A DNA stretch of 64,000 bases from Thalassococcus sp. S3 (lineage in GTDB: Bacteria > Pseudomonadota > Alphaproteobacteria > Rhodobacterales > Rhodobacteraceae). Each line of letters starts with the position of its first letter. Positions within the stretch are counted from its first letter, which is position 1. Shown piece by piece: positions 311-35,043 of this stretch. The stretch lies in contig NZ_CP022304.1 in assembly GCF_004216475.1 (NCBI RefSeq), positions 1 to 64,000 of the forward strand. Reading direction: 5' to 3'. A model generated the notes under the pieces. The model did not search any database. It saw only the letters and a list, made by a program, of their open reading frames with translations, and was not told the origin of the DNA. Both the position numbers and the translations under genes were made by a program.

Positions 311-324
311 GTCCCCGCGGGGAC
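311..324. other. parS-like palindrome, copy 1 (24 bp before parA start codon)
   Basis: Perfect 14-bp palindrome GTCCCCGCGGGGAC immediately ahead of parA. Identical copies lie at 1319, 3185, 4360, 4729, 4753 and 32079, and a one-mismatch copy at 34668. Clustering around a parAB operon is what is expected of a ParB centromere site. The assignment as parS is inference from position and symmetry. Confidence 0.6.
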
Positions 325-334
325 AGGAGCAGAT

Positions 335-1630
335 ATGTACACCCATCAGGACCTGGCGCAGCTTCAGGCGCAATCGCTCAAGATGCAGGGCTTTATCCGG
401 CAGCAGACCTTCTCGCCCGAGAACGAAAAGACCCTGCGCCGCTTCTCCAGCTGGGAGGTTGCGGAGCTGATCTTCAAGGTGAACCAATCCACCCTGCGCG
501 GTCGTCTCGCCGCCGACCCCACCCTGCCCCAGGGCATTGTCGAGGAGGATGGCCGCCAGCGCTGGTACACGCTGGAAGAGATCAACACGCTCCGCCGCAA
601 GCTGCGCGTCAACCGCCGCTCCCTCATGCCCCCCCGGCCCGCCGGCAAGCGCGCCATGCGCGCCGCCATCGCCAACTTCAAGGGCGGCGCCGGCAAGTCC
701 ACCGTGGCGCTGCATTTCGCCCATGCCGCGGCCCTCGACGGCTACCGCGTCCTCTGCGTGGATTTTGACCCCCAGGCTACGCTCAGCCACTCCATGGGTC
801 TGTCGGACGTTGCCGAGGAATTCACCGTCTGGGGTATCATGGCTCGCGATCTGGGGCTTGAAACCGCGCGCATGAACGCCGCTGCCCAAGGCGCTGAGAG
901 CGGCACCACCCTGCCCCAGCGCCGCCTGCCCGCCTCCGTGGCCGAGATGGGTCTGACCGACCTGCGCGTCTCGGACTTCATCAAGCCCACCAACTGGCCC
1001 ACCATCGGCCTCGTCCCCTCCTGCGCCAACGCGGCCTTTGTCGAATTTGCCTCCGCTCAATACCGGCACATGAACCCCGAATGGTCTTTCTTCGCGGCCG
1101 TCTCCCGCTTCCTCGACCAGCTTCCGCCTGACGCCTATGACCTCATTCTCTTCGATTGCCCGCCTGCCATCGGCTACCAGTCCATGAACGCCGTCTTCGC
1201 CGCTGACATGCTCTACATCCCCTCCGGTCCCGGCTACTGGGAATATGACAGCACCACCTCCTTCATTGGCCAGCTCGCCGAGGCTCTGGAGGATCTCACC
1301 CGCTTCAACAACGGCCTTGTCCCCGCGGGGACAAAGGCCTTCGCCGATATCCGGTTCCTTCTCACCCGGTTCGAGCCCAACAACGATCTGCACCGCGCGA
1401 TGCAGCAGGCCTTCGTTAAGGTCTTTGGCGACAGAGTGACCGAGCACCCGATCGAAATGACCCGCGCGGTGGAGCAATCCGGCCGCTTCCTGTCGTCGAT
1501 CTACGAGATCGATTACCGCGATATGACGCGGGAAACCTGGCGCCGCGCGCGTGCGTCCTTCGATCAGGCCTATGAGGAATTCAAAACCCATGTCGCAGAC
1601 GCATGGGACCAGCTAGAGGAGGCCGCATGA
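335..1630 (+). CDS. parA: ParA-type partition ATPase (plasmid RepA/ParA family)
   Basis: Predicted 431-residue ParA/Soj-type ATPase that would segregate the replicon together with ParB and a centromere. The deviant Walker A motif FKGGAGKST lies at about residues 113-121. An aspartate-rich Walker A-prime region (DFDPQATLS) and the Walker B-like LILFDCPPAIG follow. The roughly 110-residue N-terminal extension resembles the DNA-binding, MerR-like domain of plasmid ParA proteins that autoregulate. A parS-like palindrome sits just before the start and another lies inside the gene at 1319. The stop overlaps the parB start by ATGA, so the two are translationally coupled. Chromosomal ParA proteins are usually shorter (about 260-270 residues), which favours a plasmid system. 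Confidence 0.9.
   Translation: MYTHQDLAQLQAQSLKMQGFIRQQTFSPENEKTLRRFSSWEVAELIFKVNQSTLRGRLAADPTLPQGIVEEDGRQRWYTLEEINTLRRKLRVNRRSLMPPRPAGKRAMRAAIANFKGGAGKSTVALHFAHAAALDGYRVLCVDFDPQATLSHSMGLSDVAEEFTVWGIMARDLGLETARMNAAAQGAESGTTLPQRRLPASVAEMGLTDLRVSDFIKPTNWPTIGLVPSCANAAFVEFASAQYRHMNPEWSFFAAVSRFLDQLPPDAYDLILFDCPPAIGYQSMNAVFAADMLYIPSGPGYWEYDSTTSFIGQLAEALEDLTRFNNGLVPAGTKAFADIRFLLTRFEPNNDLHRAMQQAFVKVFGDRVTEHPIEMTRAVEQSGRFLSSIYEIDYRDMTRETWRRARASFDQAYEEFKTHVADAWDQLEEAA
1319..1332. other. parS-like palindrome, copy 2 (inside parA)
   Basis: Perfect GTCCCCGCGGGGAC, flanked by TT and AA to give an 18-bp palindrome. It is read in parA as Val-Pro-Ala-Gly-Thr. Confidence 0.55.
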
Positions 1631-2703
1631 GCAAGCGCCGCATCTTCGACATCGATTTCGACATCTCATCCGAGGACAGCCCGCAAGGGCTGGACGAGGG
1701 CCAGGCAGAACCGCGCCGCGGCCCCATGGCCACCGCCATCTCCGAAAACGCCGAGGCCCTCACCGAACGCGCCACAGCCGAGGCCGCGATCCGCGCCGAA
1801 AACGACCGCCTCGCCCATGAATATGTGGCTCTGAAAAGGGACGGTCTGATCCAGGGCCGCATCCCTATCGACCGCATCAAGGCCGAGAAACTGACCCGTG
1901 ACCGCTCCACCACGCGCGACCCGGAGCTTGACGAACTCATCGCTTCCATCCGGGCTGTGGGCCTGTCCAACCCCATCCATGTGGAAGAGACAGAAACCGG
2001 CTATGAGCTGATCCAGGGCTTCCGCCGCCTCAGCGCCTACCGTGCGCTGCATGCTGAAACAGGCGCCACCGCCTATGCCACCATCCCCGCCACGCTCCAG
2101 GCCAAGGGCGCGGCCCGTGATCAGCTCTACCGCCGCATGGTCGACGAAAACCTCGTGCGCAAGGACATCTCCTTTGCCGAGATGGCCCAGCTCGCCATGT
2201 CCTATGCCAAGGAAACAGCCACCGTGATCGGTGAGGTGCCCGATGCCGTCGACCTTCTTTTTGCCTCCACTGGCCGTCAGAAACGCAGCTATATCCGTCA
2301 TTTCTGTCACCTGATCCGCATCCTCGGCCCCGCGCTGAAATACCCCGAGGTGATCCCCCGCGCGACCGGTCTGGCCCTTCTCAAGCGCCTCGATTCCGAC
2401 CCGCGCCTCGCCGGTCAGATCAAGTCTGTCCTGCAAAGCCGTCCCGACCGGGACGAGGCCGGCGAACTGGCCGTTCTGCGCGCCGCGGCAGAGGCGCCCC
2501 GCGGGGCGGCCAAGACCCCAGCCCGCCCGCAGCCCAAAAGCACCGCGAAAACCACGATCAAGCTCAACCGCCCCGAAGGTGTGGCCAAGTGCACCGCCGC
2601 CAATGGCCGGTTCGAACTGCAACTGGATCAGGATTTCAGCGCCATCGACCGGCGGCGGCTCGAAGCGGCAGTGCGGTCCTTCCTCGATCAGCTCAAGGGC
2701 TGA
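1627..2703 (+). CDS. parB: ParB-type centromere-binding protein
   Basis: 358-residue ParB/RepB-type protein. The ParB N-terminal nuclease-like fold is recognisable: DRIKAEKLTRDRS, then DPELDELIASIRAVGLSNPIHV, then the signature YELIQGFRRLSAYRAL (the ParB box II region, roughly residues 120-140). A helix-turn-helix region follows (LVRKDISFAEMAQLAMSYAKE and downstream). An Ala/Pro-rich linker leads to a C-terminal dimerisation segment. The ATG at 1627 overlaps the parA stop; the upstream in-frame start at 1603 lies inside parA and was not used. It is convergent with bchO, with a 16-bp overlap. It would bind the GTCCCCGCGGGGAC palindromes if those are parS. Confidence 0.88.
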   Translation: MSKRRIFDIDFDISSEDSPQGLDEGQAEPRRGPMATAISENAEALTERATAEAAIRAENDRLAHEYVALKRDGLIQGRIPIDRIKAEKLTRDRSTTRDPELDELIASIRAVGLSNPIHVEETETGYELIQGFRRLSAYRALHAETGATAYATIPATLQAKGAARDQLYRRMVDENLVRKDISFAEMAQLAMSYAKETATVIGEVPDAVDLLFASTGRQKRSYIRHFCHLIRILGPALKYPEVIPRATGLALLKRLDSDPRLAGQIKSVLQSRPDRDEAGELAVLRAAAEAPRGAAKTPARPQPKSTAKTTIKLNRPEGVAKCTAANGRFELQLDQDFSAIDRRRLEAAVRSFLDQLKG

Positions 2704-3563
2704 TCGGCCAAAAACCCCTGTATCAGAGCCGCAACGCGATCCGGTGCCTCTTCATGTGCGAGGTGGCCCAGATCCGGCAGCGTCACCGTCCGGCAATCCG
2801 GCATCCGCGCGGCAGCGCGGGCCGGGCTTGCCGGCGGCACTGTGCGGTCCCGCGCGCCTGTCAGAAAGAGGGCTGGCATGGCCAGCTTAGGCAACTCCTG
2901 CCTCAGATGATTGAGAGACCAACTGGCCATCATCAAAAGCGTGCCATCGACATGGTCGCGATCTCTGATCAACCGACGATAAAGCTGGAGGCCAATAGGG
3001 TCTAAATCAGACCCTGTAGAACGGATCAGAGCCGCGACGCGCTCCGGGCTGTCCGATGTGCGGGACACCATCTCTGCCGTGAACGGCGTCAGCGCGAGCA
3101 TCTTTGCCATCGCCGGGAACATAACGCTCGCCATACCTTTGAAATTCTCCAAGGCAGGGTTGATGCCAATAACGCGCGGCGCCTGTCCCCGCGGGGACAC
3201 CAGCCGGTGCGTGAGGTTCAGCGCCACAGCACCCCCTGCCGAGTGTCCGATGATTGCCGCCGGCTGCCAGCCTTCCTGCGCGCAGAGATTTGCGATGTCC
3301 TCGGTCGTGGCATGCAGCCCGCTGCGGTGTCTTGCGCCCAGTTGGGTCAGGCCCTGTCCGGGCAGGTCCAGCGATATAACGCGATGGCTCTGCGCGAGGA
3401 TTGGCGCCAATCCACGAAACGAATGCACGCTGCACCCCGTTCCGTGCAGCAGAAGCAGCGTTTCGCCTTGTCCCATCTCCTGCACATGCCAGCGATGGGG
3501 GCGGCAGAGGATCTGCCGGGAATGCTCAAGGAGGGGCCAATCGGCGGGCGGGGGCCAGCGCAT
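2688..3563 (-). CDS. bchO: BchO, magnesium chelatase-associated alpha/beta hydrolase
   Basis: 291-residue alpha/beta hydrolase of the BchO family, always found with bchI and bchD in photosynthesis clusters; its exact reaction is not settled. The oxyanion region HGTGCSVHSF (about residue 40), the nucleophile elbow GHSAGG (about residue 110) and a C-terminal LGHLAHEE carrying the expected histidine are visible. It is the last gene of the crtA-bchI-bchD-bchO operon and starts 3 bp after the bchD stop. A parS-like palindrome at 3185 is embedded in its coding sequence. Confidence 0.9.
   Translation of the reverse strand: MRWPPPADWPLLEHSRQILCRPHRWHVQEMGQGETLLLLHGTGCSVHSFRGLAPILAQSHRVISLDLPGQGLTQLGARHRSGLHATTEDIANLCAQEGWQPAAIIGHSAGGAVALNLTHRLVSPRGQAPRVIGINPALENFKGMASVMFPAMAKMLALTPFTAEMVSRTSDSPERVAALIRSTGSDLDPIGLQLYRRLIRDRDHVDGTLLMMASWSLNHLRQELPKLAMPALFLTGARDRTVPPASPARAAARMPDCRTVTLPDLGHLAHEEAPDRVAALIQGFLADQPLS
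3185..3198. other. parS-like palindrome, copy 3 (inside bchO)
   Basis: Perfect GTCCCCGCGGGGAC within the bchO reading frame, where it contributes the residues Val-Ser-Pro-Arg-Gly in the loop after the nucleophile elbow helix. Confidence 0.5.
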
Positions 3564-3566
3564 GGC

Positions 3567-5255
3567 TCACGCCTCGCTCAGCGCGCCGGTGACGGCGGCA
3601 GAGACCCGGGCCGCATCTGCGCGCGGCAGCGGCAGATAGGGCGCGCCCAGGGTGGCTGCGAGGCTTTTGAGCGCGGGTTGGGGCCGGTTCGACATGTCGA
3701 TCATCAGCCCGGGAACGGATTGCAGGCGCAGGGCGGTGGCCAGCGTTTCGCTGTCCTGCGCCGCGCGCTGTCGGTCGGGCGTGCCGTCCAGCGCGATATT
3801 CGCGCGCCCGTCCGTCATCAGCACTACCGTGGGGGTCAGGCCCTTCGAGCGGCTAAGCAGGGACAATTCGGCGGCGGCCTTGAGGCCCGCGGCCAGGGGT
3901 GTGCCGCCGCCGCCAGGCAGGGCGGCCAGACGGCGTTTGGTTTGCACGAGGCTGCGGGTCGGGGGAAGGAGGAGGTCTGCCTCCTCACCCCGGAACGCGA
4001 TCAGGGCGACGTGGTCGCGGCGTGCATAGGCTTCGCCGAGTAGGAGTTCGACGGCGCCTTTGGCCTCACCCAAACGCGACACGGCGGCGGAGCCGGAGGC
4101 GTCAACGGTGAAAATCAGCAGACGGTCGGAGGTCTCCTCGAACCGGCGCAGCCGGATGTCGCTGGAGCGGATGAGCAGACCGGGCGCGTCGGGTTGCGTA
4201 CGACGGCGGAGAGGTTGCCAGGGGGCGGCGGCGCGCAGGGTGGCCACGAGGTCGATCCGCGCGCGTCCATCGAGCCGTCCGGAGCGCGAGGGCAGGGGGC
4301 GTCCACGCCGGTTGCCTTTGCGCTTTTGTCCGGCGCCCGAGCCGCCCGATCGCCGCCCTGTCCCCGCGGGGACAAGCCCGTCCAGAAGGCCCGGCGGCAA
4401 GAGCGCCTTGACCGCTTCGACCATCATCTCGGCGGGGATCGCTTCGCCTGTTGTGCCGTCGTTGCCCGCATCGTCGGGCACGGATTGATCCTGCAGCGGG
4501 GCAGGGAGGTCCTCTGCTGCATCTTCGGGAATGCGGGTGGCGCGGGAGGGGTAGACCAAGGTGGCTGCTGTGGTGAGGTCATCATCGGTGACCTTTGTCC
4601 TGCCATTCATAGCGGCGTGCGCGCGGGCGCAGGAGAGGGCGAGAAGCGGTGCGCGGAGGCTGTCGATTCCGAAACGGGCCGCAAGAGAGACTAGGATTTC
4701 GGGGGACTTGTACGGGATTTTGACATCTGTCCCCGCGGGGACAGGTGGGGGTGTCCCCGCGGGGACAGTCATGTCGGCGATGCGCAGACCGTCGAGATCC
4801 ACATGGAAGGCGAGACGATCCGTCAGGGCTTTGGGGGCACGCTCATCGGGTTCGGCGCCTTCGTCGAGGAGGATCAGGGCGCTGCCGATTGCGGCGTCGA
4901 GATGTTGGGCGAGTTTGGCGGCGAGATCGGTGGGGATCCGTTCGGCCATGGTGGCCAAGATGATGCGGGGATGGCTGAAAAGTCCATCATTTTCAATCAC
5001 TTGAGAGGCTGCGAGCGTAGCGGAGATGTTGATGCCGCCGAAAAGCTGGTCGTCGCTGATCGTGGGGTGGATCTTGCGGATGGGCAAGGGCAGGCGGGGC
5101 AGGGCGGAGAGGAGCGCATCGCGGGCCGGGCCGGTGCGGGCGCGGATGACCATGCCGCCGAGGCCGCCGGGGTCTTGTGCGAGACACGCCAAAGCGGTCC
5201 AGATCAGGGCCGCTCCTTCGCCCTTGCGGGCGGCGTCGCGGGCGGGGGCGCTCAC
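3567..5255 (-). CDS. bchD: Magnesium chelatase subunit D
   Basis: 562-residue BchD, which forms the AAA+ motor of magnesium chelatase with BchI and delivers Mg2+ into protoporphyrin IX with BchH. The N-terminal AAA+-like domain lacks a clear Walker A motif, as is usual for BchD. A Pro/acidic linker (about 250-330) follows, then a C-terminal integrin-I/von Willebrand A domain with the metal-site signature DASGS. The GTG start at 5255 overlaps the bchI stop (GTGA); the longer frame upstream is a shadow of bchI. Three palindromes (4360, 4729, 4753) are embedded in the coding sequence, two of them only 24 bp apart and encoding a VPAGT-x3-VPAGT duplication. Confidence 0.93.
4360..4373. other. parS-like palindrome, copy 4 (inside bchD)
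   Basis: Perfect GTCCCCGCGGGGAC in the bchD linker region, read as Val-Pro-Ala-Gly-Thr. Confidence 0.55.
4729..4766. other. Tandem parS-like palindromes, copies 5 and 6 (inside bchD)
   Basis: Two perfect GTCCCCGCGGGGAC copies at 4729-4742 and 4753-4766, centres 24 bp apart. Both are inside bchD and encode VPAGT followed by PPP and a second VPAGT. This is the densest cluster of the motif and a good candidate for a partition-complex nucleation site. Confidence 0.6.
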
Positions 5256-6256
5256 CCCAGAACGCTTTCGACGGTGCGGGTGACGCGGGTGCCCGAGCCT
5301 GCTTCGTCGAGGGGGTCGCGGCGGAGGCGGTGGGAGAGGGCCATGGGGGCCACGCTGCGTAGATGTTTGCGGGTGACGGTTTTGCGACCCTCCCAAGCGG
5401 CCAGCGCGCGGGCGGTGCGCAGGAGCGTGAGCTCGCCGCGTAGGCCGTCGGAGCCGAGGGCGACGCAAAGCTCGGCGCAGTCGCGGAGGATGGTTTTTGG
5501 GGTTCTGACCTCTGTCAGGGCCTGACGGGCGGCGAGGATGCGGTCGCGGGTCTTGGCGTCTTCGGCCTGCCAGCGGGTCAGGAAGGCGTCGCGGGTGTTC
5601 TCGTAGCTGTCGCGGCGGCGGATCACCTCTATGCGCTGGCCGATATCGGTAGGCGAGCGGACCTCGACGGAGAGGCCGAACCGGTCCAGCAATTGAGGGC
5701 GCAGTTCGCCCTCTTCGGGATTGCCGGAGCCGACGAGTACGAAGCGGGCGGGGTGGCGGATGGAGAGGCCTTCGCGCTCCACCACATTCTCGCCGGATTG
5801 GGCCACGTCGAGGAGGAGGTCGACGATGTGATCCTCAAGCAGGTTGACCTCGTCGATATAGAGATAGCCGCGATTGGCGCGGGCCAGGAGGCCCGGTTCG
5901 AACGCCTTCTCGCCCCGGGTGAGGGCGCGTTCGATATCGAGGGCGCCAACGACGCGGTCCTCGGTGGCGCCCAGAGGCAGGTCTATGACCGGGGTGGGGC
6001 GTGAAACCACCTGTTTAGAGCCTATTTCGGCCCAATCGGGGCAATCTTCGACGCGGGCGGAGTTCACTGGGCAGCCTTCGACCTGTTCGATGGGGGGCAG
6101 GAGCGCGGCGAGGGCGCGGACGGCGGTGGATTTGCCTGTGCCGCGGTCGCCGAAGACCAGCACGCCGCCGATGCCGGGGTCGATGGCGGTGAGCACCATG
6201 GCGCGTTTCATATCGGTTTGGCCGACGATGGCCGAAAAGGGGAAGGGCGCGGTCAT
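5252..6256 (-). CDS. bchI: Magnesium chelatase ATPase subunit I
   Basis: 334-residue AAA+ ATPase of magnesium chelatase (first committed step of bacteriochlorophyll synthesis). Walker [10 protein letters not shown] lies at about residues 33-41. Walker B is in [15 protein letters not shown], sensor-1 in [22 protein letters not shown], and the arginine-finger region follows. Length is standard for BchI (about 330-350). The start overlaps the crtA stop (ATGA) and the end overlaps the bchD GTG, so the operon is translationally coupled throughout. Confidence 0.96.
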
Positions 6257-6963
6257 TGAGGTCTTTCCAAATGTCTAAGCGGGCTTTTTCCGCCCCATGT
6301 GCCCATGTCGCCGGTCACGGCGAAGCGGGCGTAAAGCTCTTCCCGGAACCAGCCTTCTTCTCGCACGGCCTGGATGGCACGGGCATGGGGTCCGGCAGGA
6401 TCACGGGCGAAATCGGCCATCTGCCGGGCGCCGGGCCAGATGGAGAAGGTGACTTGATGCAGGAGAGGGACCTCTCCGATCCCGATCTTGAAAATCACGT
6501 TGGGATCGGCTCCGATTACCGCGGAAATGTCGGGGACCTGCCCCCAGAACTTCCATGCAACCCGGGGTTTGACCGTGGCGCGGGTGAGGGCGGCGAGGGG
6601 GCCTTTCGGCTCGTCTTCGCTCACCTCGAAGGGCGCGACACCGGACCATTCCCCGCGTGCGGAGGTGGGGGTGAGGAAGACGGTCCAGTCTTCCTCCGCC
6701 CGGTGGCGGTAGCGGTTCCAGATGCGGGTGTCGGAGACCCGGGCGCGGGCTGTCGCGAGGTCTGGCCAGGTGGCCAGAATCGCATAAACGCCCGTGTTTG
6801 GCACGGGTGTGAAGCCTTCGCCGGTGCCCGATCCGCAGAGTTTCCAGAAGCCGATATCGGGCACGCGGGGCAGCGAAAAGCGGGCCGCGCCCATCATTCC
6901 AAGCGCCCAGGCCCGCGCCAGCGGCGCGCCAAAGCGGAAGAAGCTGAGCGAGACGGTTTGCAT
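6253..6963 (-). CDS. crtA: Spheroidene monooxygenase
   Basis: 236-residue CrtA, which oxidises spheroidene to spheroidenone, the red keto-carotenoid typical of aerobic Roseobacter phototrophs. The family regions SLSFFRFG at the N terminus, [11 protein letters not shown], and a C-terminal [14 protein letters not shown]...[12 protein letters not shown] are present. I chose the ATG at 6963 rather than the in-frame TTG at 6996, because the TTG would place the coding region over a PpsR box at 6991-7008. It leads the crtA-bchIDO operon and is divergent from crtI, sharing a 118-bp promoter region with two PpsR-type boxes. Confidence 0.93.
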
Positions 6964-6990
6964 GAGGCGTGGCTTCGGCAGTGGCTTGGG

Positions 6991-7008
6991 TGTCAACCTA
7001 AGCTGACA
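6991..7008. promoter_or_regulatory. PpsR-type box in crtA-crtI intergenic region (site 1)
   Basis: TGTCAACCTAAGCTGACA fits TGT-N12-ACA exactly and lies 28 bp upstream of the crtA start. PpsR/CrtJ represses carotenoid and bch genes by cooperative binding to two such boxes; the partner is at 7045. Confidence 0.8.
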
Positions 7009-7044
7009 GAATTATCCTTGCAGGAAAACGAAGCTAAAGGCAAT

Positions 7045-7062
7045 TGTAAATCAAACTAGACA
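7045..7062. promoter_or_regulatory. PpsR-type box in crtA-crtI intergenic region (site 2)
   Basis: TGTAAATCAAACTAGACA, an exact TGT-N12-ACA match, 20 bp before the crtI start. Its spacing of 54 bp from site 1 means one repressor complex could serve both divergent operons. Confidence 0.8.
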
Positions 7063-7081
7063 GTCGTATCGTCATCCTATC

Positions 7082-8629
7082 ATGACTCGCGTTGATCCGA
7101 TCTCCCCGCCTCAGACCGGTTCCGTGCCGGATGCCCGTCCACATGCCATTGTCGTTGGCGCCGGTCTGGGTGGCCTTGCCGCCGCGATGCGGCTGGGGGC
7201 CAAGGGATATCGGGTGACGGTGATCGACAAGCTGGACGTGCCGGGCGGGCGGGGGAGCTGCATCCGCCAGGACGGCCACCGCTTCGATCTGGGGCCGACC
7301 ATCGTGACGGTGCCGCAGCTTTACCGGGAGCTTTGGGCGGCCTGCGGACGGGATTTCGATCAGGATGTGACGCTGAAATCGCTCGATCCCTTCTATGAGA
7401 TTCGCTGGCCGGATGGGACAAAGTTCGTGGCCCAGCACGACAGCGAAAAGATGCGCGAAGAGGTCGCTAAGATTAGCCCGGAGGATGTGAAAGGGTTTGA
7501 TCGCTTCCTCAGGGACAGCGAGGCGCGGTATTGGTTCGGGTTCGAGGATTTGGGCCGGCGCCCGATGAACGAGCTTTGGGAGCTGATCAAGGTGCTGCCC
7601 CGCTTTGCGATGCTGAGGGCGGACCGATCGGTTTATGCCCATGCTGCAAGGCGGTTCAGGGATGACAAGTTGAGGATGGCGTTTAGCTTCCATCCTCTCT
7701 TTATCGGGGGCGATCCGCTGCATGTGACGTCGATGTATATCCTTGTCAGCTATCTCGAAAAGCAGTTCGGTGTGCATTACGCGATGGGCGGGCTTGCGGG
7801 GATGGCGCAGGCGATGGGCCGGGTGATCGAGGATCAGGGCGGATCGCTTTTGATGCAGACGGAGGTGGACCGGGTGTTGATCCGGCAGGGCCGAGCGGCG
7901 GGCGTGAGGCTGGCGAGCGGGCTGGAGATGGGCGCGGATGTGGTCGTGTCGAACGCGGATGCGGGGCATACTTATGACCAGCTGATGAAGGATGCACCCA
8001 AGAGGCGCTGGACGCCCGGGAGGCTGAAGCGCACGAGGTGGTCGATGAGCCTGTTTGTCTGGTATTTCGGGACCAAGGGGACCCGAGGCAAATGGCAGGA
8101 TGTGGGTCATCACACGATCCTGAACGGGCCAAGATATCAGGGTCTGCTCAAGGATATTTTCATGAAAGGCAAGCTGGCGGAGGATTTCAGCCTTTATGTG
8201 CATCGCCCGTCGGTGACGGATCCGAGCGTGGCGCCGGAGGGGGACGATACGTTCTATGTTCTCAGCCCGGTGCCGCATCTGGGGCATGACAATGGTGTGG
8301 ACTGGAGTGAGGAGGCCGAACGCTACAAGGCCCGCGTGCTGAAGGTGCTGGAAGAGCAGATGACGCCGGGGCTGGGAGAGGCGATCAGCACGGAGGTCGT
8401 GTTCACGCCGGAGACGTTCAGAGACAGGTATCTCAGCCCGTTCGGAGCCGCGTTCTCCATCGAGCCGCGCATTCTGCAAAGCGCGTGGTTCCGGCCGCAT
8501 AACGTGAGCGAGGAGGTGCCGGGGCTTTATCTGGTGGGCGCGGGCACGCATCCGGGTGCCGGGGTGCCGGGCGTGATCTCGACGGCGGAAGTGCTGGGCA
8601 AGCTGGTGCCCGACGCGGTGCGGGCATGA
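7082..8629 (+). CDS. crtI: Phytoene desaturase
   Basis: 515-residue FAD-dependent CrtI, which desaturates phytoene to neurosporene (three steps in this pathway type). The N-terminal dinucleotide fold HAIVVGAGLGGLAAAMRL and the characteristic DVPGGRGSCIRQDGHRFDLGP are clear. The C-terminal bacterial-type phytoene dehydrogenase signature GLYLVGAGTHPGAGVPGV lies at about 485-502. It is the first gene of crtI-crtB-tspO. The stop overlaps the crtB start (ATGA). Confidence 0.96.
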   Translation: MTRVDPISPPQTGSVPDARPHAIVVGAGLGGLAAAMRLGAKGYRVTVIDKLDVPGGRGSCIRQDGHRFDLGPTIVTVPQLYRELWAACGRDFDQDVTLKSLDPFYEIRWPDGTKFVAQHDSEKMREEVAKISPEDVKGFDRFLRDSEARYWFGFEDLGRRPMNELWELIKVLPRFAMLRADRSVYAHAARRFRDDKLRMAFSFHPLFIGGDPLHVTSMYILVSYLEKQFGVHYAMGGLAGMAQAMGRVIEDQGGSLLMQTEVDRVLIRQGRAAGVRLASGLEMGADVVVSNADAGHTYDQLMKDAPKRRWTPGRLKRTRWSMSLFVWYFGTKGTRGKWQDVGHHTILNGPRYQGLLKDIFMKGKLAEDFSLYVHRPSVTDPSVAPEGDDTFYVLSPVPHLGHDNGVDWSEEAERYKARVLKVLEEQMTPGLGEAISTEVVFTPETFRDRYLSPFGAAFSIEPRILQSAWFRPHNVSEEVPGLYLVGAGTHPGAGVPGVISTAEVLGKLVPDAVRA

Positions 8630-9660: not shown

Positions 9661-9664
9661 CGTT

Positions 9665-26408: not shown

Positions 26409-26474
26409 CGGATCGCGCTGCGCGCGATTGCCTTCCCTCTCGGGTCCGTAAACGGACCCTGACGGGCAGTGGGC

Positions 26475-26500
26475 GAGGATATTTTTAACCCAAAGAAGAC
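26475..26500 (+). repeat. Degenerate dispersed element after dxs
   Basis: GATATTTTTAACCCAAAGAA then GAC, resembling the ATTTTTA...GAAGAAG elements after tspO, crtC and idi. It overlaps the 3' end of the convergent hydrolase gene. Confidence 0.45.
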
Positions 26501-27300: not shown

Positions 27301-28303
27301 TCAGATCGCTCCATGTCGGAAGGATGTCCCCGGGCGCGGGCCGGGCGAGGTAGATCGCGCGGGCAATGGCACGGGAGAGGCAAAGGGCGGCGGCGTGGCC
27401 GATGACGGTGAGACCGCGTTCGGCGTCGGCGGGGGGACGGGCGCCGGTGGAGAGGGCAAAGACCAGATCGCCGTCACCGGGGCTGTGGGCCGGGACGGTG
27501 GCCCGGGCGATGCCGTCATGGGCGGCGATGGCCATGCGCTGGCATTGTGCCTTGGTCAGGTCCGCATCGGTGGCCACGATGGCGATGGTGGTGTTGGCGC
27601 GCTCCATCTCGCCCAGCATGCTGGCGAGCTTGCGGCTTTCGAGATCACGGCCCAGCCCTGTCGCGGGATCGGGGCCAAGGCCGCCAAATTCGCCGTCGAT
27701 CTCGAACGGGGCGGCGTAGAAATGGCGGTCTCCGGGGGTTGTCACGCTGCCCATCGGGTTGGCCGCGACGAGGGCACCGACGGTGGTGCCATCGGGCAGG
27801 ATGAGCGAGGCGGAACCGAGCCCGCCCTTGGTCATCGCGGTGAGCGCGCCGGTCCCTGCACCGGCCGTCCCGAGGGCGAAGTCGGACCCGGCAGCGTCGA
27901 AGGCGGCACGGCCCAGGGCGGGGTAGGGGTTCCGGGTCCAGTCTTTCTGCCCTCCGTTGAGCAGATCGAAGATGATCGCACCGGGCACCAGCGGGATGAT
28001 GGCTGGGCCGACCGGATGACCGCGCCCCGCCGCGCGCAGGCCATCGACCACGCCGGAGCAGGCGTCGAGGCCGTAAGCCGACCCGCCCGCGAGGGTCAGT
28101 GCGTCAATCCTGGCCACCGATTTGTCGGGGGCGAGCAGGTCCGTTTCCCGCGTGCCGGGCGCGCCGCCCATCACGTGGACGGAGGCGGTGAAGGGCGCGT
28201 CGGCGGTCAGCACGGTGACGCCGGATTTCAGGGTGTCGTCCTGCGCGTTGCCGACATGCAGGCCGGAGACGTCGGTGATCAGGTTGCGGGGGCCGGGCTG
28301 CAT
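27293..28303 (-). CDS. P1-family (S58, DmpA-like) aminopeptidase
   Basis: 336-residue member of the DmpA/BapA family of N-terminal-nucleophile peptidases, which cut small peptides or beta-peptides after self-cleavage. N-terminal GPRNLITDVSGLHVGNAQD, LTLAGGSAYGLDACSGVVDGLRAAGRG and the GTAGAGTGALTAMTKGGLGSAS region are characteristic. The autoprocessing site is expected before a Ser/Thr near residue 230-250 but I could not fix it. It pairs with the hydrolase downstream. Confidence 0.8.
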   Translation of the reverse strand: MQPGPRNLITDVSGLHVGNAQDDTLKSGVTVLTADAPFTASVHVMGGAPGTRETDLLAPDKSVARIDALTLAGGSAYGLDACSGVVDGLRAAGRGHPVGPAIIPLVPGAIIFDLLNGGQKDWTRNPYPALGRAAFDAAGSDFALGTAGAGTGALTAMTKGGLGSASLILPDGTTVGALVAANPMGSVTTPGDRHFYAAPFEIDGEFGGLGPDPATGLGRDLESRKLASMLGEMERANTTIAIVATDADLTKAQCQRMAIAAHDGIARATVPAHSPGDGDLVFALSTGARPPADAERGLTVIGHAAALCLSRAIARAIYLARPAPGDILPTWSDLNA

Positions 28304-28321
28304 GGCGTCTGTGGGACTTTT

Positions 28322-28347
28322 CCGTATTTTTTCGAGAAGAAGGCCCC
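28322..28347 (+). repeat. Dispersed element between cupin and peptidase genes
   Basis: CCGTATTTTTTCGAGAAGAA then GGCCCC, a shorter copy of the element found after tspO, crtC and idi. Here it lies in a 45-bp gap between two genes on the minus strand. Confidence 0.6.
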
Positions 28348-28348
28348 A

Positions 28349-28702
28349 TCAGAGCCTTGGCTTGGGCGCGGCGGTCTCTGGATCACCGGTATTGGGCTCG
28401 CCCTTGGGTTCGATCAGCAGGACCTCGCATTCGGCCTTGGCGCGGGGGCGGTGGGTGACGCCTTTGGGCACGACATAGATCTCTCCGGCGCGGATGGTCT
28501 GGGGGGCCGCGCCGTCGATATCCATCACCATCTCGCCCTTGAGGACGAGGAAGAAGTCATCCGTCTCGGCATGGCTGTAATAGGGGAATTCGCCCTGAAA
28601 CTTCACCACCATCACGTCATTGTCGTTGTAATCAGCGACCACATGCGGGTCCCAATGGGTGCGGATCTGGGCCAGCTTTTCGGCGAGGTTCACGTGGCTC
28701 AT
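28349..28702 (-). CDS. Cupin-domain protein
   Basis: 117-residue single-domain cupin. The metal-binding motif 1 appears as YYSHAETDDFFLVLKGEM and motif 2 as GEIYVVPKGVTHRPRA, with His and Glu positions intact. Such small cupins bind a metal and may be isomerases, dioxygenases or sugar-acid binding proteins. ATGA overlap with the SDR stop shows an operon with that dehydrogenase. Confidence 0.8.
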   Translation of the reverse strand: MSHVNLAEKLAQIRTHWDPHVVADYNDNDVMVVKFQGEFPYYSHAETDDFFLVLKGEMVMDIDGAAPQTIRAGEIYVVPKGVTHRPRAKAECEVLLIEPKGEPNTGDPETAAPKPRL

Positions 28703-29445
28703 ATGCAGCGGCCCCCGTCGACTTCCATGCAGACGCCGGTGAGCATGCTGGCCTCGTCCGAGCAGAGGAAACAGGCGGCGTTGCCGAGGTCTTCGGGCTG
28801 GGAGAAGCGGCCCAGCGGAATGGTGGAGAGGAACTTGGCGCGGGTCTCTGGCGTGTCCTCGCCCATGAAGCTTTTCAAAAGAGGGGTTTCGCCCGCCACC
28901 GGGTTCAGTGCGTTCACCCGGATGCCGTCGGGGGCGAGCTCCACCGCCATGGTGCGGGTGGCGGTGATCATCCACCCTTTGGAGGCGTTGTACCAGTTGA
29001 GCCGGGGCCGGGGTGAGACACCGGCGGTCGAGGCGATGTTGAGAAATGTGCCCGCGCCCCGCGCTTTCATATGGGGCACCAGAGCGCGGGCGGTGAGGTA
29101 AACGGATTTCATGTTGACCTGAAAAACGCGGTCGAAATCCTCGTCCGTTATGTCTTCGAGCGGGGCGGGCATGTGGGTGACGCCCGCATTGTTGACCATG
29201 ATATCGACATGGCCGAACGTCTCGATTGCCGTATCGATCATCGCTGTGACCGAGGCTTTGTCGGATACGTCCACGCTCTGCGCCACGGCAGGGCTGCCGA
29301 TCTCGGCGGCAAAGCCGGCGGCCCCTTCGGCATTGATGTCGGCGATCATGACACGCGCGCCTTCGGCGGCGAATTTGCGCACGATGCCAGCGCCGAAGCC
29401 CGAGGCGCCTCCGGTCACGATGGCGGTTTTGTCGGCAAGTCTCAT
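28699..29445 (-). CDS. SDR-family oxidoreductase
   Basis: 248-residue classical short-chain dehydrogenase. Cofactor motif TGGASGFGAGI (about 11-21), NNAGVTH (about 87), catalytic Ser region and YNASKGW (Tyr/Lys at about 151-155). An acidic residue after the second strand (MIADINAEG) suggests NAD(H). Substrate unknown; the C terminus resembles glucose/3-oxoacyl-type SDRs. Confidence 0.85.
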   Translation of the reverse strand: MRLADKTAIVTGGASGFGAGIVRKFAAEGARVMIADINAEGAAGFAAEIGSPAVAQSVDVSDKASVTAMIDTAIETFGHVDIMVNNAGVTHMPAPLEDITDEDFDRVFQVNMKSVYLTARALVPHMKARGAGTFLNIASTAGVSPRPRLNWYNASKGWMITATRTMAVELAPDGIRVNALNPVAGETPLLKSFMGEDTPETRAKFLSTIPLGRFSQPEDLGNAACFLCSDEASMLTGVCMEVDGGRCI

Positions 29446-29567
29446 CAGCGTCCCTCCCTTGATGGCAGAGAACGGGATTGATGGCGGAGGGGCAAGGGGG
29501 TTTGACGAGATTGTCGTCTATCTGCGCGTTGAGGGCGGCCAGCATAACGGAGCCTGCGCCCGGTGCG

Positions 29568-31019
29568 CTAGCCGTGAAAGCTGGCCACGGTCTTGAGTTG
29601 AGAAAAGCCGTAAAGGGCCTCGAAGCCTTTCTCACGACCATGGCCGGATTTGCCGACCCCGCCGAAGGGCAGTTCCACGCCGCCGCCCGCACCGTAATTG
29701 TTCACAAAAACCTGCCCGGCATGCAAGGCTCTGGCCAGCCGCATCTGGCGCGCTCCGTCCCGGGTCCAGATCGAGGCGACGAGACCGTAATCGGTGCTGT
29801 TGGCGATGCGCAGCGCTTCGGCCTCGTCGGTGAAGGGGATCAGGACCTGAACGGGGCCGAAGATCTCATCCCGTGCAAGGGTGTGGTCGGGCGGGACATC
29901 GGAAAAGAGCGTGGGACGGATATAGGCGCCCGCTTCGGGCGCGTCGGCGTGCAGAACGCCCTGGGCGGCGATGGGAAGGTCACGGCCCTTGGCAAGGAAG
30001 CCGGACACGATGTCTTTCTGACGGGTCGAGATGAGGGGGCCGACCCGCAGATCCTCGGTCGCCGGGCCGACGGTCAGCGCGGCATAGGCCTCGGCCATGC
30101 GGCTCTGAACGGCGTCATAGACCCCTTTTTGGACCAGAATTCGGGAGGAGGCGGAGCAGGTCTGACCGGCATTCTGGATCCCGGCACTGACCAGGAAGGG
30201 CAGTGCGGCGTCGAGATCGGCATCGTCAAAGACAAGCTGGGGGGATTTGCCACCCAATTCCAAAGTGACGGGCACGACATTACGCCCCGCGGCCTGCTGG
30301 ACAAGGGCGCCGGTCGCAACGGAGCCGGTGAAGGAGATGTGGTGTATTCCGGCATGGCCGCTGAGGGCCGCCCCGGCCTCGGCCCCCAGACCGGGCACCA
30401 CGTTCAAGGCGCCGGCGGGCAGACCGGCCTCCAGCGCAAGATGCGCGAAGGCGAGGGCGGTCAGGCAAGCCTCTTCGGCGGGTTTCAGGACGCAGGCATT
30501 TCCCATCGCCAGAGCCGCGCCGACGGAGCGGCCGATGATCTGCATCGGATAGTTCCAGGGAACGATATGGCCGGTTACGCCATGCGGCTCCCGCAGAGTA
30601 TAGACGGTATAGCCGTCGAGATAGGGAATGGTCTCTCCCATCACCTTGTCGGCGGCGCCCCCGTAGAATTCCATATAGCGGGCAAGGGCCAAGGCGTCGG
30701 CGCGCGCCTGGCTGAGCGGTTTGCCGACATCCAAAGCCTCGATCAGGGCCAGATCATCGGCCCGCGCGGTGACGAGCGTTCCGATGCGCATGAGGATCCG
30801 CCCCCGTTCTGCCGCGGTCATGCGCCCCCATGCGCCCGCCCGCGCAGTATGCGCAGCGGCGATTGCGGCGTCGATGTCCTGGGCGCCGCCCCGGGCGATT
30901 TGCGCCAGCTTGCTGCCATCGGACGGATTGATCAGATCAAGCGTCTGGCCGGAGGCAGGAGGGCGCCAGTCCGAACCGACAAGACAGAGCGATGGGTCGA
31001 ACCAGAGGGGCAAGGACAT
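29568..31019 (-). CDS. Aldehyde dehydrogenase
   Basis: 483-residue NAD(P)-dependent aldehyde dehydrogenase. Visible motifs: IVPWNYPMQI, SFTGSVATGALVQQAAGRNVVPVTLELGGKSPQLVFDDADLDAAL (general-base Glu in ELGGKSP), the catalytic cysteine in NAGQTCSASSR, and EIFGPVQVLIPF. The ATG at 31019 was preferred over the upstream in-frame start at 31172. It is in the same direction as the SDR, 122 bp upstream of it. Its 181-bp upstream gap contains a short GAGC tandem repeat (31048-31063) and no gene. Confidence 0.9.
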   Translation of the reverse strand: MSLPLWFDPSLCLVGSDWRPPASGQTLDLINPSDGSKLAQIARGGAQDIDAAIAAAHTARAGAWGRMTAAERGRILMRIGTLVTARADDLALIEALDVGKPLSQARADALALARYMEFYGGAADKVMGETIPYLDGYTVYTLREPHGVTGHIVPWNYPMQIIGRSVGAALAMGNACVLKPAEEACLTALAFAHLALEAGLPAGALNVVPGLGAEAGAALSGHAGIHHISFTGSVATGALVQQAAGRNVVPVTLELGGKSPQLVFDDADLDAALPFLVSAGIQNAGQTCSASSRILVQKGVYDAVQSRMAEAYAALTVGPATEDLRVGPLISTRQKDIVSGFLAKGRDLPIAAQGVLHADAPEAGAYIRPTLFSDVPPDHTLARDEIFGPVQVLIPFTDEAEALRIANSTDYGLVASIWTRDGARQMRLARALHAGQVFVNNYGAGGGVELPFGGVGKSGHGREKGFEALYGFSQLKTVASFHG

Positions 31020-31200
31020 AAGGGGCCTGCGATCTTGATGTTGTCTTCGAGCGAGCGAGCGAGCGGGGCGCGGCATGCGGCCGCTGATGTGGCCGCCTGT
31101 CATGCCTCTTTGCCCCTGGGCACCAAACTGCATTGCGTGGGTGGAAGCAAGGGCAGGTCGATCCGCGACCATCGGGTCAGAGGACTTTTCGGCGGGCAGG

Positions 31201-31662
31201 TCAGGGGCTGACGCGGAACGTGAAACTGTGGGATTGGTACGGCGTCAGAGGGGGACCCTTCCGCAGCTGCCGGACGGAGGGCAGAGATGGAAGGCAATGG
31301 TCCCAGAACGGCGCGGCCGAGGCGGAGCCGGCGGCCACACCCAGGATCCAGGAGCCGGGAAAGTGGCGCAGGGTAAGATCGACGGCCTGCACCCCGAGGC
31401 CTTGCCGGCGATGATCGGGGGTGATGTAGAATTCCGCCAGTTCCCGCCGTCCGGAAGGTTCGTCCCGCACCAGGGCAAATCCCATCGGGATGGCGCCATT
31501 GAGCAGGGTCAGCGCATGGCGACCTGCGTCCGTCCACACGTCGTCGTTGTAGTCGGGTCCGGGAGCGGGCAGGTGGGGCACCAGCTCGGCGAAATAGGGG
31601 ACCATCAGGCTGTGAAGCCAGGCCCTGTCGGCTTCGGGTGTTGGCAGGATACGGACGGTCAT
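31201..31662 (-). CDS. GNAT-family acetyltransferase
   Basis: 153-residue GCN5-type N-acetyltransferase fold: AEFYITPDHRRQGLGVQAVDLTLRHFPGSWILGVA contains the acetyl-CoA loop (R-R-Q-G-L-G). It is coupled to the ABC ATPase upstream by an ATGA overlap, so it may modify something related to the transported peptide or amine. Confidence 0.8.
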   Translation of the reverse strand: MTVRILPTPEADRAWLHSLMVPYFAELVPHLPAPGPDYNDDVWTDAGRHALTLLNGAIPMGFALVRDEPSGRRELAEFYITPDHRRQGLGVQAVDLTLRHFPGSWILGVAAGSASAAPFWDHCLPSLPSVRQLRKGPPLTPYQSHSFTFRVSP

Positions 31663-33287
31663 GCGGCCCCCAATTGCGGCAGCCGCGGTGCGGCGGCGAT
31701 CAGGCTTTGCGTATAGGGATGTGCGGGCGAGGTGAAGACCTCTTCGGTGGGGCCCTGTTCGACGATCTCCCCGGCTTTCATGACCAGAACGCGGTCGGTG
31801 ACACGACGCACGACGCTGAGGTCGTGGCTGATGAAGAGGTAGCTGAGCTGATATTCGCCACAGAGGCGGGCCATCAGATCGAGGATCTGGGCGCGGACGG
31901 AGACGTCGAGCGCGCTGACGGCCTCGTCAAAGAGGATCAGCTCGGGGCGGATGATCAGGGCGCGGGCGATGGCGATCCGCTGGCGCTGCCCGCCGGAGAA
32001 TTGGTGGATGTATTTGGTGGCGTCGTCGGGGGAGAGGCCGACGGCGGTCAGGGCCTCGGCGATGGCCTGTTGCAGCGCGTCCCCGCGGGGACGGTCGTGA
32101 AGCAAATGGAAGGGTTCGGTGATCAGCCGGTCGACGCGGTGGCGGGGATTGAAACTGCCGAAGGGATCCTGGAAGACCACCTGCATCTTGCGCCGCACGG
32201 CAAGGTTGGGCTGGTGGCCGGAGAAGACCGGTTCGCCCGCGAGGCGGATGTCGCCGGATTGCACCTCTTCAAGCCCGAGGATGGCGCGGGTGAGGGTGGA
32301 CTTGCCGCAGCCCGATTCGCCTACGAGACCAAGGCGTTCGCCGCGTTCGAGTGTGAAGCTGACGTTGTTGACGGCGCGGAAGTGGCGTTGGGGTGCAAAG
32401 AGGCGGGTGCGGGGCAGGCGGTAGTCACGGCAGACATCGGTGACTTCGAGGAATGGCGCGGGTGCTGGGCGTGGGGGCAGGGTGACGGGGTGGTCGGAGG
32501 CTTCGAACAGCATTTTCGTATAGGGATGCTGCATGTGCCGGAGGAGGTGCTGTGTGGGGTCGGCCTCCACCACTTCGCCCAGACGCATGACGGTGATGCG
32601 GTCGGCCATGTCGGCCACGACGGCGAGGTCATGGGTGATCATCAGGAGGCCCATGCCGTCTTCTTTGACCAGCTGTTTGAGGAGCGCGAGGATCTGGGCC
32701 TGGGTGGTGACGTCGAGCGCGGTCGTGGGTTCATCGGCGATGAGGAGTTTAGGGCGAAGCGCGATGGCCATGGCGATGACGACGCGCTGACGCTGGCCGC
32801 CGCTGAGCTCATGCGGGTAGCGGGTGAGGGGGAATCGGTCTTCGGGCAGGCCGACGCGGGTGAGGACCTCACGGGTCCGCTCTTTCGCCCTTGCGGGCGG
32901 CATCGCTGCGTGGGTGAGGATCGTCTCGGCCACCTGATCGCCGATGGTCTGGACGGGGTTCAGGGCGGTCATGGGCTCCTGGAAGATCATGCCCACGTCA
33001 TTGCCGCGGATGGCACACATCTGCGGTTCGGTGGCCTTCAGGATGTCGGTGCCGTCGAGGGTGATTTGACCGTGGCTCCGCGCGCCCTGCGGCAGGAGTT
33101 GCATCACGGCGAGGGCGGTCATGGACTTGCCGGAGCCGCTTTCGCCGGTGACGGCGACGATCTCACCGGGTGCGATCTTCAGAGAGATGTCCTTGAGTAT
33201 GGGGGTGGCGTGGATCGTGAGGGACAGGTTCTGGATGGAGAGTAGCTCGGTTTGGCGCGGCGCTTCGCCTTGTTGTGACACCGTCAT
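31659..33287 (-). CDS. Oligopeptide-type ABC transporter ATPase, DppD-DppF fusion
   Basis: 542 residues with two complete ABC domains. First: Walker A GESGSGKS (about 50), signature LSGGQRQRV, Walker [13 protein letters not shown]. Second: GESGCGKS (about 315), [21 protein letters not shown]. Each domain has the C-terminal oligopeptide extension ([34 protein letters not shown]). It energises the two permeases upstream, each coupled by ATGA overlap. A parS-like palindrome lies inside at 32079. Confidence 0.92.
32079..32092. other. parS-like palindrome, copy 7 (inside ABC ATPase gene)
   Basis: Perfect GTCCCCGCGGGGAC, about 27 kb away from the parAB cluster of sites, in the second ATPase domain (DRPRGDALQ). 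Confidence 0.45.
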
Positions 33288-34099
33288 GTCCGCGCCACCC
33301 TGAGCTTTGGGTCGAGCCAGTCGCGCAGGCCGTCTCCCATCAGGTTCAGCCCCAGCACGGTCAGGATGATTGCGCATCCGGGGATGAGGGCGAGATGCGG
33401 CGCGAGGCTGACCATCGTCTGGGCATCGGCCAGCATGCGGCCCCAGCTGGGCGTGGGCGGCTGCGCGCCGAGGCCCACGTAAGACAGCGCCGCCTCGGCG
33501 AGGATGCCGAGGGAGAACTGGATTGTGCCTTGTACGATCAACAGGTTGGTGACGTTGGGCAGGATATGCTCGGCACTGATGCGGGTGGCGGATTTTCCGG
33601 CGACACGCGCGGCGAGGATGAATTCGCGTTGCCAGAGGCTGAGTGCTGCACCGCGGGTGATGCGGGCGAAGACGGGGATGTTGAAGATGCCGATGGCGAT
33701 AATCGCGTTCACGGCACTGGGGCCGAAGACAGCGGTGATCAGGATGGCAATGACCAGTGACGGGAAGGCAAAGATTAGGTCGTTGCCGCGCATGATGATC
33801 TCATCGAGCCATCCGCCGCTGCGGGCGGCTGCCGCAAGGCCGAGGGGCACGCCTAGAATGATGCCGATACCGACGGCCACGAGGGCCACGGCGATGGAGG
33901 TCCGCGCGCCCACCATGATCATCGACAGCATGTCACGTCCGAAGTGATCGGTGCCCAGAAGATGCGTGCCGTTCGGTGTCTGCAGGCGGGCGGGGATGTT
34001 CATCGACGCGTGATCGAAGGGCGTCCAGAGGAACGACAGGAGGGCGGCGGCCACGAAAATGGCTGTGAGGAGCGCGCCGAGGATCAGGTTGCGCGTCAT
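33284..34099 (-). CDS. Oligopeptide-type ABC transporter permease (DppC/OppC family)
   Basis: 271-residue inner-membrane permease, with an N-terminal span (LILGALLTAIFVAAALLSFLW), the periplasmic TPNGTHLLGTDHFGRDMLSMIM segment typical of DppC, and the EAA-type loop AARVAGKSATRISAEHILPN. It forms the channel with the DppB-type permease. Confidence 0.9.
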   Translation of the reverse strand: MTRNLILGALLTAIFVAAALLSFLWTPFDHASMNIPARLQTPNGTHLLGTDHFGRDMLSMIMVGARTSIAVALVAVGIGIILGVPLGLAAAARSGGWLDEIIMRGNDLIFAFPSLVIAILITAVFGPSAVNAIIAIGIFNIPVFARITRGAALSLWQREFILAARVAGKSATRISAEHILPNVTNLLIVQGTIQFSLGILAEAALSYVGLGAQPPTPSWGRMLADAQTMVSLAPHLALIPGCAIILTVLGLNLMGDGLRDWLDPKLRVART

Positions 34100-35043
34100 G
34101 TCCGGGACCTCAGCCGCGGGTCGACGGCCGCATAGGCGAGATCGACGAGGAAGTTCACGAGGATCACGGCGAAGACGAGGAGCATGACGACCGATTCCAC
34201 AACGATCAGATCGCGGGAGCTGATCGATTGGAAGATCAGACGGCCAAGGCCGGGCAGGTAGAAAACCTGTTCGATAATGATGGCACCGGCGAGCAGGAAG
34301 GAGAATTGAAGACCGATGATGGTCAGGACGGGGATCAGCGCGTTGCGCACGCCGTGTCGCCAGAGGGCCTGGCGGCGGGAAAGGCCCTTGGCCCGGGCGG
34401 TGCGCATGAAATCCTCACCCAGGATATCGAGGAGCGACGAGCGCATCACGCGGGCGAGGATCGCGGCTTGGGGGAGAGCCAGCGCGATGGCGGGCAGGGT
34501 CAGGGCATGCAGGCCGGTCCAGAGACCCTGATCCCAACCGGGAAAGCCACCCGCGCTGAACCAGCGCAGGTTGATGGCGAAGACCAGCACCAGCATCATC
34601 GCGAACCAGAAATTCGGGATCGCGACGCCCAGTTGGGTGGCGCCCATCACGGTGACATCGCCGGCCTGTCCCCGCCGGGACGCGGCGTAAATGCCGGCGG
34701 GAAAGGCGATGAGTGTGGAGAGCGTCAGGGCATAGAGCGCCAGAGGCAGGGAGACCCAGAGACGGTCGGCCACCATCTCTGCCACCGGGGTCCGGTAGGT
34801 GTAGGAGGTGCCGAAATCGCCCGTGAGCATACCGCCCACCCAGTCGAGATATCGCTGCCATTTGGGCACGTCGAGGCCAAGCTCGGCCCGCAGGGCCGCG
34901 AGCGTTTCGGGCTGCGCGTTGACCCCGAGCATGAAGGAAGCCGGATCGCCCGGTGCCACCTCGATCACAAAGAAGATGATCAGGCTGGCGACGGCCAGGC
35001 TGATGATCAGAGAGAGCAGGCGTTTGAGCGTATATCGCAGCAT
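34096..35043 (-). CDS. Oligopeptide-type ABC transporter permease (DppB/OppB family)
   Basis: 315-residue permease with six predicted spans, N-terminal LRYTLKRLLSLIISLAVASLIIFF and EAA loop FMRTARAKGLSRRQALWRHGVRNALIPVL. First gene of the dppB-dppC-dppDF-gnat operon. No periplasmic binding protein gene adjoins it in this window. A one-mismatch parS-like site lies inside (34668-34681, GTCCCCGCCGGGAC). Confidence 0.9.
   Translation of the reverse strand: MLRYTLKRLLSLIISLAVASLIIFFVIEVAPGDPASFMLGVNAQPETLAALRAELGLDVPKWQRYLDWVGGMLTGDFGTSYTYRTPVAEMVADRLWVSLPLALYALTLSTLIAFPAGIYAASRRGQAGDVTVMGATQLGVAIPNFWFAMMLVLVFAINLRWFSAGGFPGWDQGLWTGLHALTLPAIALALPQAAILARVMRSSLLDILGEDFMRTARAKGLSRRQALWRHGVRNALIPVLTIIGLQFSFLLAGAIIIEQVFYLPGLGRLIFQSISSRDLIVVESVVMLLVFAVILVNFLVDLAYAAVDPRLRSRT

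Follow-up and report, generated by a model that had tools for sequence, protein, structure and literature searches.

Genes and palindromes at the parAB-bchO-bchD junction

The window analyzed here is a 64,000 nt stretch from Thalassococcus sp. S3, bases 1-64000 of the 95,560 bp plasmid contig C2 in a 5.0 Mb genome. C2 encodes the partition proteins ParA and ParB together with the photosynthesis genes bchO, bchD and bchI, and the subject of this study is a 14 bp palindrome, GTCCCCGCGGGGAC, which recurs in and around these genes and was put forward in the original prediction as a candidate parS (centromere) site. On the plus strand, the Walker-type ParA gene (335..1630), encoding a RepA-like plasmid partition ATPase (Pfam AAA_31, E 7e-24; NCBIfam partition_RepA, 211.9 bits, below the cut-off of 348), lies directly 5′ of parB (1627..2703) and overlaps it at 1627-1630. 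The product of parB is a putative centromere-binding protein (Pfam ParB_N, E 2.6e-7, above the cut-off). Both bch genes are on the minus strand: bchO (2688..3563; NCBIfam TIGR03056, 319.6 bits, above the cut-off) converges on parB, and bchD (3567..5255; NCBIfam NF009943, 651 bits, above the cut-off) encodes magnesium chelatase subunit D. As read from the sequence, the GTG start of bchD overlaps the bchI stop codon, and Roseobacter litoralis shows the same 4 bp overlap.

At the far end of C2, divergent from parAB, is a replicase gene whose product is 69% identical over 226 residues to the replicase of R. litoralis pRLO149_94, a plasmid with the same parAB-bchO-bchD junction. The DnaA_N model scores 20.2 bits against the C2 replicase, under its cut-off of 24.6, and the R. 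litoralis replicase likewise stays under it at 23.0 bits. RepABC models do not describe the partition proteins of C2, partition_RepA scoring 211.9 against a cut-off of 348 and partition_RepB 27.8 against 201.5. The closest plasmid records to C2 are the photosynthesis plasmids of Roseobacter ponti, Tateyamaria omphalii and R. litoralis. pRLO149_94 has been typed as DnaA-like I, with the replication module at a conserved central spot of the photosynthesis gene cluster (PMC6052148); by its sequence, C2 can be assigned the same DnaA-like I layout.

Seven exact copies of GTCCCCGCGGGGAC, at 311, 1319, 3185, 4360, 4729, 4753 and 32079, and one single-mismatch copy at 34668 are present in the window, just as the original prediction had listed them; being palindromic, they are given without strand. 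The six leftmost, all within 4.5 kb of parA as claimed, are referred to below as candidate sites parS 1 to parS 6. Allowing up to two mismatches, the window contains 8 matches against a shuffle mean of 0.92, and none of 100 shuffles reached 8. Markov models of order 1-4, fitted to the plasmid sequence after the motif had been taken out, predict 0.0006-0.002 exact copies in 95,560 bases. The prediction had also proposed a comparison of plasmid and chromosome, with equal frequency as the outcome that would speak against it: all seven exact copies in the genome are on C2 and none is on the other three contigs. One-mismatch copies number three genome-wide, at C2:34668 and at two positions on C1.

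The candidate parS 1 (311..324) is 11 bases 5′ of the parA start codon (335), immediately ahead of the ribosome-binding site; corresponding copies precede parA in R. litoralis (48), R. ponti (100908) and T. omphalii (31158). The other five of the six are intragenic, as had been noted. The copy in parA (parS 2, 1319..1332) reads VPAGT and occupies the same alignment column in all four related ParAs compared; that in bchO (parS 3, 3185..3198) reads SPRGQ on the minus strand; and the three in bchD (parS 4, 4360..4373; parS 5, 4729..4742; parS 6, 4753..4766) all read VPAGT. The 24 bp spacing of parS 5 and parS 6 recurs in pairs within several Tateyamaria bchD genes. Five of the seven exact copies extend to the 16-mer TGTCCCCGCGGGGACA; the flanks outside the 14-mer are C..A at 311, which thus lacks the outer T on one side, and C..G at 32079, which lacks it on both. 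Beyond the 16-mer, the flanks of the window copies differ.

The palindrome accompanies ParB in related genomes

The best 80 ParB loci retrieved from other named genomes by a ParB profile search include 66 with the exact motif. All 325 copies at these 66 loci, in 1.24 Mb examined, fall between -3.0 and +4.5 kb of the parB start. Judged by distance, 61 are upstream of parA, 57 in parA, 45 in parB, 60 in the 300 bp that follow parB and 102 farther downstream. In 92% of the half-sites position 8 is T, which gives TGTCCCCGCGGGGACA, and we call loci of this kind TGT class after positions 8-6 of the half-site. Again by distance, 57 of the 66 TGT-class loci have a site in parA and 50 have one upstream of it. 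Among 198 genomes of the family, ParB (E 1e-30) was detected in 20 of the 21 with the motif vs 47 of the 177 without it (Fisher test, 7e-10).

On the photosynthesis plasmids closest to C2, exact copies surround parAB-bchO-bchD in R. litoralis (4), R. ponti (6, with all but 942 bases scanned) and T. omphalii (10). An Alloyangia pacifica plasmid has 16 copies around parAB in a 50 kb stretch in which no photosynthesis gene is annotated, and the motif was not found in a 50 kb stretch of Sulfitobacter S190, whose ParB is 33% identical to that of the window. On plasmids that have no photosynthesis genes close to parAB, the sites fall in parA, in parB and in the DNA after them, so they are tied to the distance from parB and not to photosynthesis as such. 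Single exact palindromes also occur away from parAB in unrelated contexts in two ParB-bearing genomes, G215 (L229-L233) and G205 (L227-L228).

Among the clusters examined, sites inside bchO and bchD are restricted to those linked to ParB

Within bchD and bchO of relatives, the palindrome occurs at several places and in three reading frames, as VPAGT, SPRGQ and CPRGD. When all 14 nt windows were ranked by conservation among 18 linked genes, the bchO site (parS 3) came first of 860 and the bchD site matching parS 4 first of 1676; the R. ponti site column in the region of parS 5 ranked seventh. Mean column conservation of these genes is only 0.73-0.75, and the peptides encoded by the sites fall in stretches that are variable among unlinked BchD proteins. 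Exact codons were found in 59 of the 62 VPAGT peptides of bchD and bchO (some loci being duplicated), vs about 1% expected by codon usage.

We then counted, in a class-matched way, sites across the BchD tree. BchD is present in 72 family genomes, of whose loci the best 30 were taken for the tree, leaving G116 and others off it. The duplicates L111 and L177 and any bchD fragment not longer than 1500 bases were dropped before the tree was built, and L013, which has another ParB, was left out of the count. A palindrome of the own class lies inside bchO or bchD in 33 of the 34 ParB-linked clusters, vs 0 of 29 unlinked clusters with a palindrome of either class; unlinked means that no ParB at E 1e-30 is on the BchD contig, and draft contigs (e.g. 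in G001) may belong together. Split by class, 32 of the 33 TGT-class-linked clusters have that palindrome inside, and the single cluster linked to the other class has the other palindrome. The five linked among nine Roseobacter rows each have at least one site within bchD or bchO. ParB linkage and palindrome agree in 8 of 9 independent pairs (p 0.008). In G105, whose plasmid is of the other class, TTCCCCGCGGGGAA occupies the same bchD columns as the palindrome in several TGT-class clusters and an almost identical place in bchO.

We also considered, and rejected, that a 14-16 bp element had inserted precisely into bchD: near columns 329 and 390 variable residues are replaced with no shared gap, and columns 155-205 are too gappy to judge.

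Roseobacter genomes without the close ParB lack the sites, which have decayed in G202

In the genus of L020, a Roseobacter, BchD reaches the threshold in 17 of 19 genomes. Close ParBs (72-100%) are found in 13 of these 17, each of which also has one or more exact motifs at bchO or bchD. The remaining four, G201, G202, G203 and G213, have neither a close ParB nor an exact motif at bchO or bchD. G202, which we take to be R. denitrificans, in part on its BchD identity, is sister to R. litoralis in the tree; its BchD is 90% identical to that of R. litoralis and it has no ParB match. The four sites differ in G202 at 3, 2, 5 and 4 of the 14 bases. Across six plasmid lineages whose bchD genes share 63-76% nucleotide identity, two shared bchD sites and the bchO site are kept at 0-1 mismatches, and only two of these lineages retain the third R. 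litoralis bchD site (1032). By sequence comparison, the four sites have decayed in G202, a genome without such a ParB. Because parS gain, class switch and loss all occur inside enzyme genes, selection for the DNA site can be separated from selection for the protein.

The palindrome class follows ParB residue 217

The 14 loci without the exact motif form one ParB clade (98/94 support). TTCCCCGCGGGGAA is found at 11 of them; of the other three, one contains TTTTCCGCGGAAAA in three copies and two lack both. On the ParB tree the palindrome class requires 5 changes, vs a shuffled mean of 14.6, and none of 200 shuffles was as low. TTCCCCGCGGGGAA is present in 28 of the 198 family genomes, 23 of which have ParB.

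Residue 217 was Arg in 71/71 ParBs of the TGT class and Tyr or Pro in 11/11 of the other class in the first sample. The tally was extended to 117 ParB loci from two partly overlapping samples, in which some genomes are counted twice. Positions 8-6 of the half-site pair as TGT with Arg (86/86), CTT with Tyr (16/16) and TTT with Pro (4/4); GTT goes with Lys or Arg, at one locus each. Nine further loci comprise three with Arg and a mixed or CGT half-site and six without such a core, one of them with Arg. The subclass GTTCCCCGCGGGGAAC, of G105 and G107 only, has the G, T and T found at positions 8, 7 and 6 of the repABC consensus.

In a structure model of the window ParB (mean pLDDT 81.6, pTM 0.46), helix 204-211 is followed by a turn and helix 217-236, so that the second helix of a helix-turn-helix begins with residue 217. 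Arg217 opens the predicted recognition helix. Foldseek matched the model to ParB, Noc and KorB, with E-values of 6e-8 and weaker and low TM-scores. The ParBs of L140, L148 and L081 have Tyr217-Thr218 and no CCCCGCGGGG palindrome; a single TTACCCGCGGGTAA was found at L140 and a single TTACCCATGGGTAA at L148, and these ParBs perhaps represent a further specificity class.

A probable centromere partly written within bchO and bchD

We conclude that TGTCCCCGCGGGGACA, with GTCCCCGCGGGGAC as its core, is very probably the parS serving the plasmid's own ParAB, with the downstream half of the centromere written within bchO and bchD. This is the candidate-parS reading of the original prediction, and it gains support from the restriction of exact copies to the plasmid in this genome, the tie to ParB in relatives, the agreement of class with the helix residue, the presence of bchO/bchD sites only in linked clusters among those examined, and the decay in G202. 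The features of a ParABS system are at hand: clustered inverted repeats near parAB that are specific to the ParB lineage, and a ParB N domain plus a helix-turn-helix in the predicted fold. Because bchO and bchD begin directly after parB, the downstream half of the centromere comes to lie inside them. The claim that photosynthesis genes double as the centromere is a strong inference for the bchO and bchD sites, and it does not clearly extend to 32079 and 34668. The former, 32079..32092, is inside an oligopeptide/dipeptide-type ABC transporter ATPase gene, has no T/A at position 8 and has no counterpart on the R. litoralis, R. ponti and T. omphalii plasmids, where exact copies cluster around parAB; its status as parS is uncertain. 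The latter, 34668..34681, is inside an ABC permease gene (Pfam BPD_transp_1) and probably arose by chance.

From the location, conservation, class co-variation and decay of the sites, we infer the following course of binding, spreading, segregation and autoregulation. ParB dimers would read the two half-sites via their helix-turn-helix, with Arg217, the first residue of the recognition helix, most likely contacting the outer G-C pair. ParB may load on the six clustered sites and then spread over the flanking DNA, and the loaded ParB would be the cargo that ParA moves to each daughter cell. Site 311 probably also serves repression of parAB by ParB. The downstream half of the centromere would sit in stretches of bchO and bchD that are poorly conserved as protein.

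Several observations weigh against the parS assignment or limit its reach. Copy 32079 is 30 kb away and lacks the usual outer T/A, and in some hosts copies occur well away from parB, G063 having the most with 89. One copy is present in G118 (84% complete), in which no ParB was detected, and one in G213, where the only ParB is 33% identical. One linked cluster of the 34 in the tree set, L074, has no site in bchO or bchD; nor does G116, which is linked and outside the tree set and has one exact copy in parA and a one-mismatch copy in parB. As to residue 217, L141 (G075) has Arg217 without such a palindrome, and G105 has Arg217 with GTT; its palindrome, GTTCCCC, rules out a universal Arg217 rule.

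Other readings of the palindrome can be weighed against these data. The replicase gene adjoins parAB, and between them, at 77..138 on the plus strand, are iteron-like TGTCCCCCA repeats (77, 98, 130) that probably mark the replication origin. TGTCCCC is common to these probable iterons, TGTCCCCCAAT, and the palindrome half, so the palindromes might be origin or copy-control sites bound by the DnaA-like replicase instead of ParB. Among the TGT-class loci for which 800 bp of upstream sequence was available, 53 of 62 contain TGTCCCCCA, as do 5 of 11 loci of the other class; CTTCCCCCA occurs in none of either. The iterons stay unchanged across ParB classes: on class-switched plasmids those that can be found keep GTCCCCCA and never show CTTCCCCCA (0/11 loci), so different proteins seem to read the two elements, and the palindrome follows the recognition-helix residue of ParB. 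We therefore consider binding by the replicase very unlikely. That ParB itself reads the iterons is unlikely as well, given that iterons of CTT-class plasmids keep GTCCCCCA, several such loci having no iteron found. The position of site 311 just 5′ of the parA ribosome-binding site, and of a site upstream of parA at 50/66 loci, would suit sites that are only operators for repression of parAB by ParB or ParA, without a centromere. Repression of parA is not expected from the 207 of the 325 copies that are in or after parB, up to 4.5 kb away and partly within other genes, and we give this explanation scant credence.

A mobile repeat, REP-like or a terminator hairpin that spreads by itself, could account for the 89 dispersed copies in G063 and the 33 of the sister class in G034, some of them in terminator-like or symmetric contexts. 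The window copies differ in their flanks beyond the 16-mer and share positions with several plasmids, such dispersal is seen in 2 of 198 genomes, and each of the two hosts has palindromes only of the class that matches its own ParB; self-spreading is accordingly hard to credit. The sites are GC-rich and read as sensible peptides, and if BchD and BchO needed VPAGT or SPRGQ, GC-rich codons might produce the palindrome by coincidence. The use of three frames, the codon choice in 59/62 VPAGT peptides, the absence from all 29 unlinked clusters and the decay in G202 lead us to reject coding coincidence as next to impossible.

Orphan ParBs with dispersed palindromes

The two genomes with dispersed palindromes each contain an orphan ParB that is N-terminally short. 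In G063, the 89 exact TGT-class palindromes are on many contigs, some in terminator-like contexts, and the ParB (L221, G063:C17:12318-13154; match from residue 78, Arg217) is beside bchO; neither ParA nor a replicase was found in the 20 kb around it. The 33 CTT-class palindromes of G034, those listed being all on the 4.15 Mb contig, are in many cases flanked by AAACC..GGTTT. Its ParB (L237, G034:C1, near 3419974-3420840; match from residue 79, Tyr217) is on the same contig, with no ParA found in the surrounding 28 kb. Neither genome has the palindrome class of the other. In addition, G035:C1 has five CTT-class palindromes (L247-L251) with symmetric AAAACC..GGTT flanks on a 3.8 Mb contig, and its ParB is on another contig.

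Noc is an orphan ParB-like protein with tens of dispersed chromosomal binding sites. G063 and G034 would suggest a similar arrangement. It is conceivable, if rather doubtful, that ParBs of this family escaped at least twice (G063, G034) to Noc-like binding across the chromosome and that, in the window, ParB spreading from parS in bchO and bchD coats the bch genes and ties bacteriochlorophyll expression to partition. We regard the orphan ParBs with dispersed palindromes as a lead, not a result.

Comparison with known systems

For a widespread type of Rhodobacterales plasmid, the analysis identifies the likely centromere and documents parS gain, class switch and loss inside enzyme genes. The correspondence of residue 217 with the half-site could readily be used to test the evolution of ParB specificity and of plasmid compatibility. 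The sites also add a constraint on moves of the photosynthesis cluster from plasmid to chromosome or back: they are missing from the four Roseobacter clusters in which this ParB is absent. The chromosomal parS, TGTTTCACGTGAAACA, differs from the window motif by inspection.

No report of a DnaA-like I parS or of the exact motif was found in the literature searched, which excludes the type-defining paper of Petersen et al., 2011, so that priority may lie elsewhere. The passages of PMC6052148 available to us name no centromere, and 'palindrom' and 'partition' give no hits in its main text. As far as the literature searched shows, the system, the host genes and the evidence of gain and loss are new. 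Intragenic parS as such is known, since repABC replicons provide a precedent with cas genes as hosts (PMC9040568).

According to that study, repABC replicons in Rhodobacterales have several palindromic ParB sites close to the partition operon and downstream of it, each 16 bp long, centred on GC and with T at position 6; some are inside open reading frames, notably cas genes, and the authors proposed selection within coding sequence (PMC9040568). The sites described here are alike in being multiple 16 bp palindromes near or after the partition operon, some of them intragenic. They differ in the replicase and operon layout and in the outer bases, which are TG and not the GT of the consensus: the repABC consensus GTTNNNNGCNNNNAAC has G, T and T at positions 8, 7 and 6, in place of which the window class has T, G and T. 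Here, moreover, the hosts are photosynthesis genes, and the sites are absent from clusters without the ParB. Among RepABC compatibility groups, two are told apart by one reciprocal exchange of a base in the palindrome (PMC5613091). This exchange is comparable to that between the TGT and CTT classes, which in the present system tracks one ParB residue and concerns plasmids of the DnaA-like I type.

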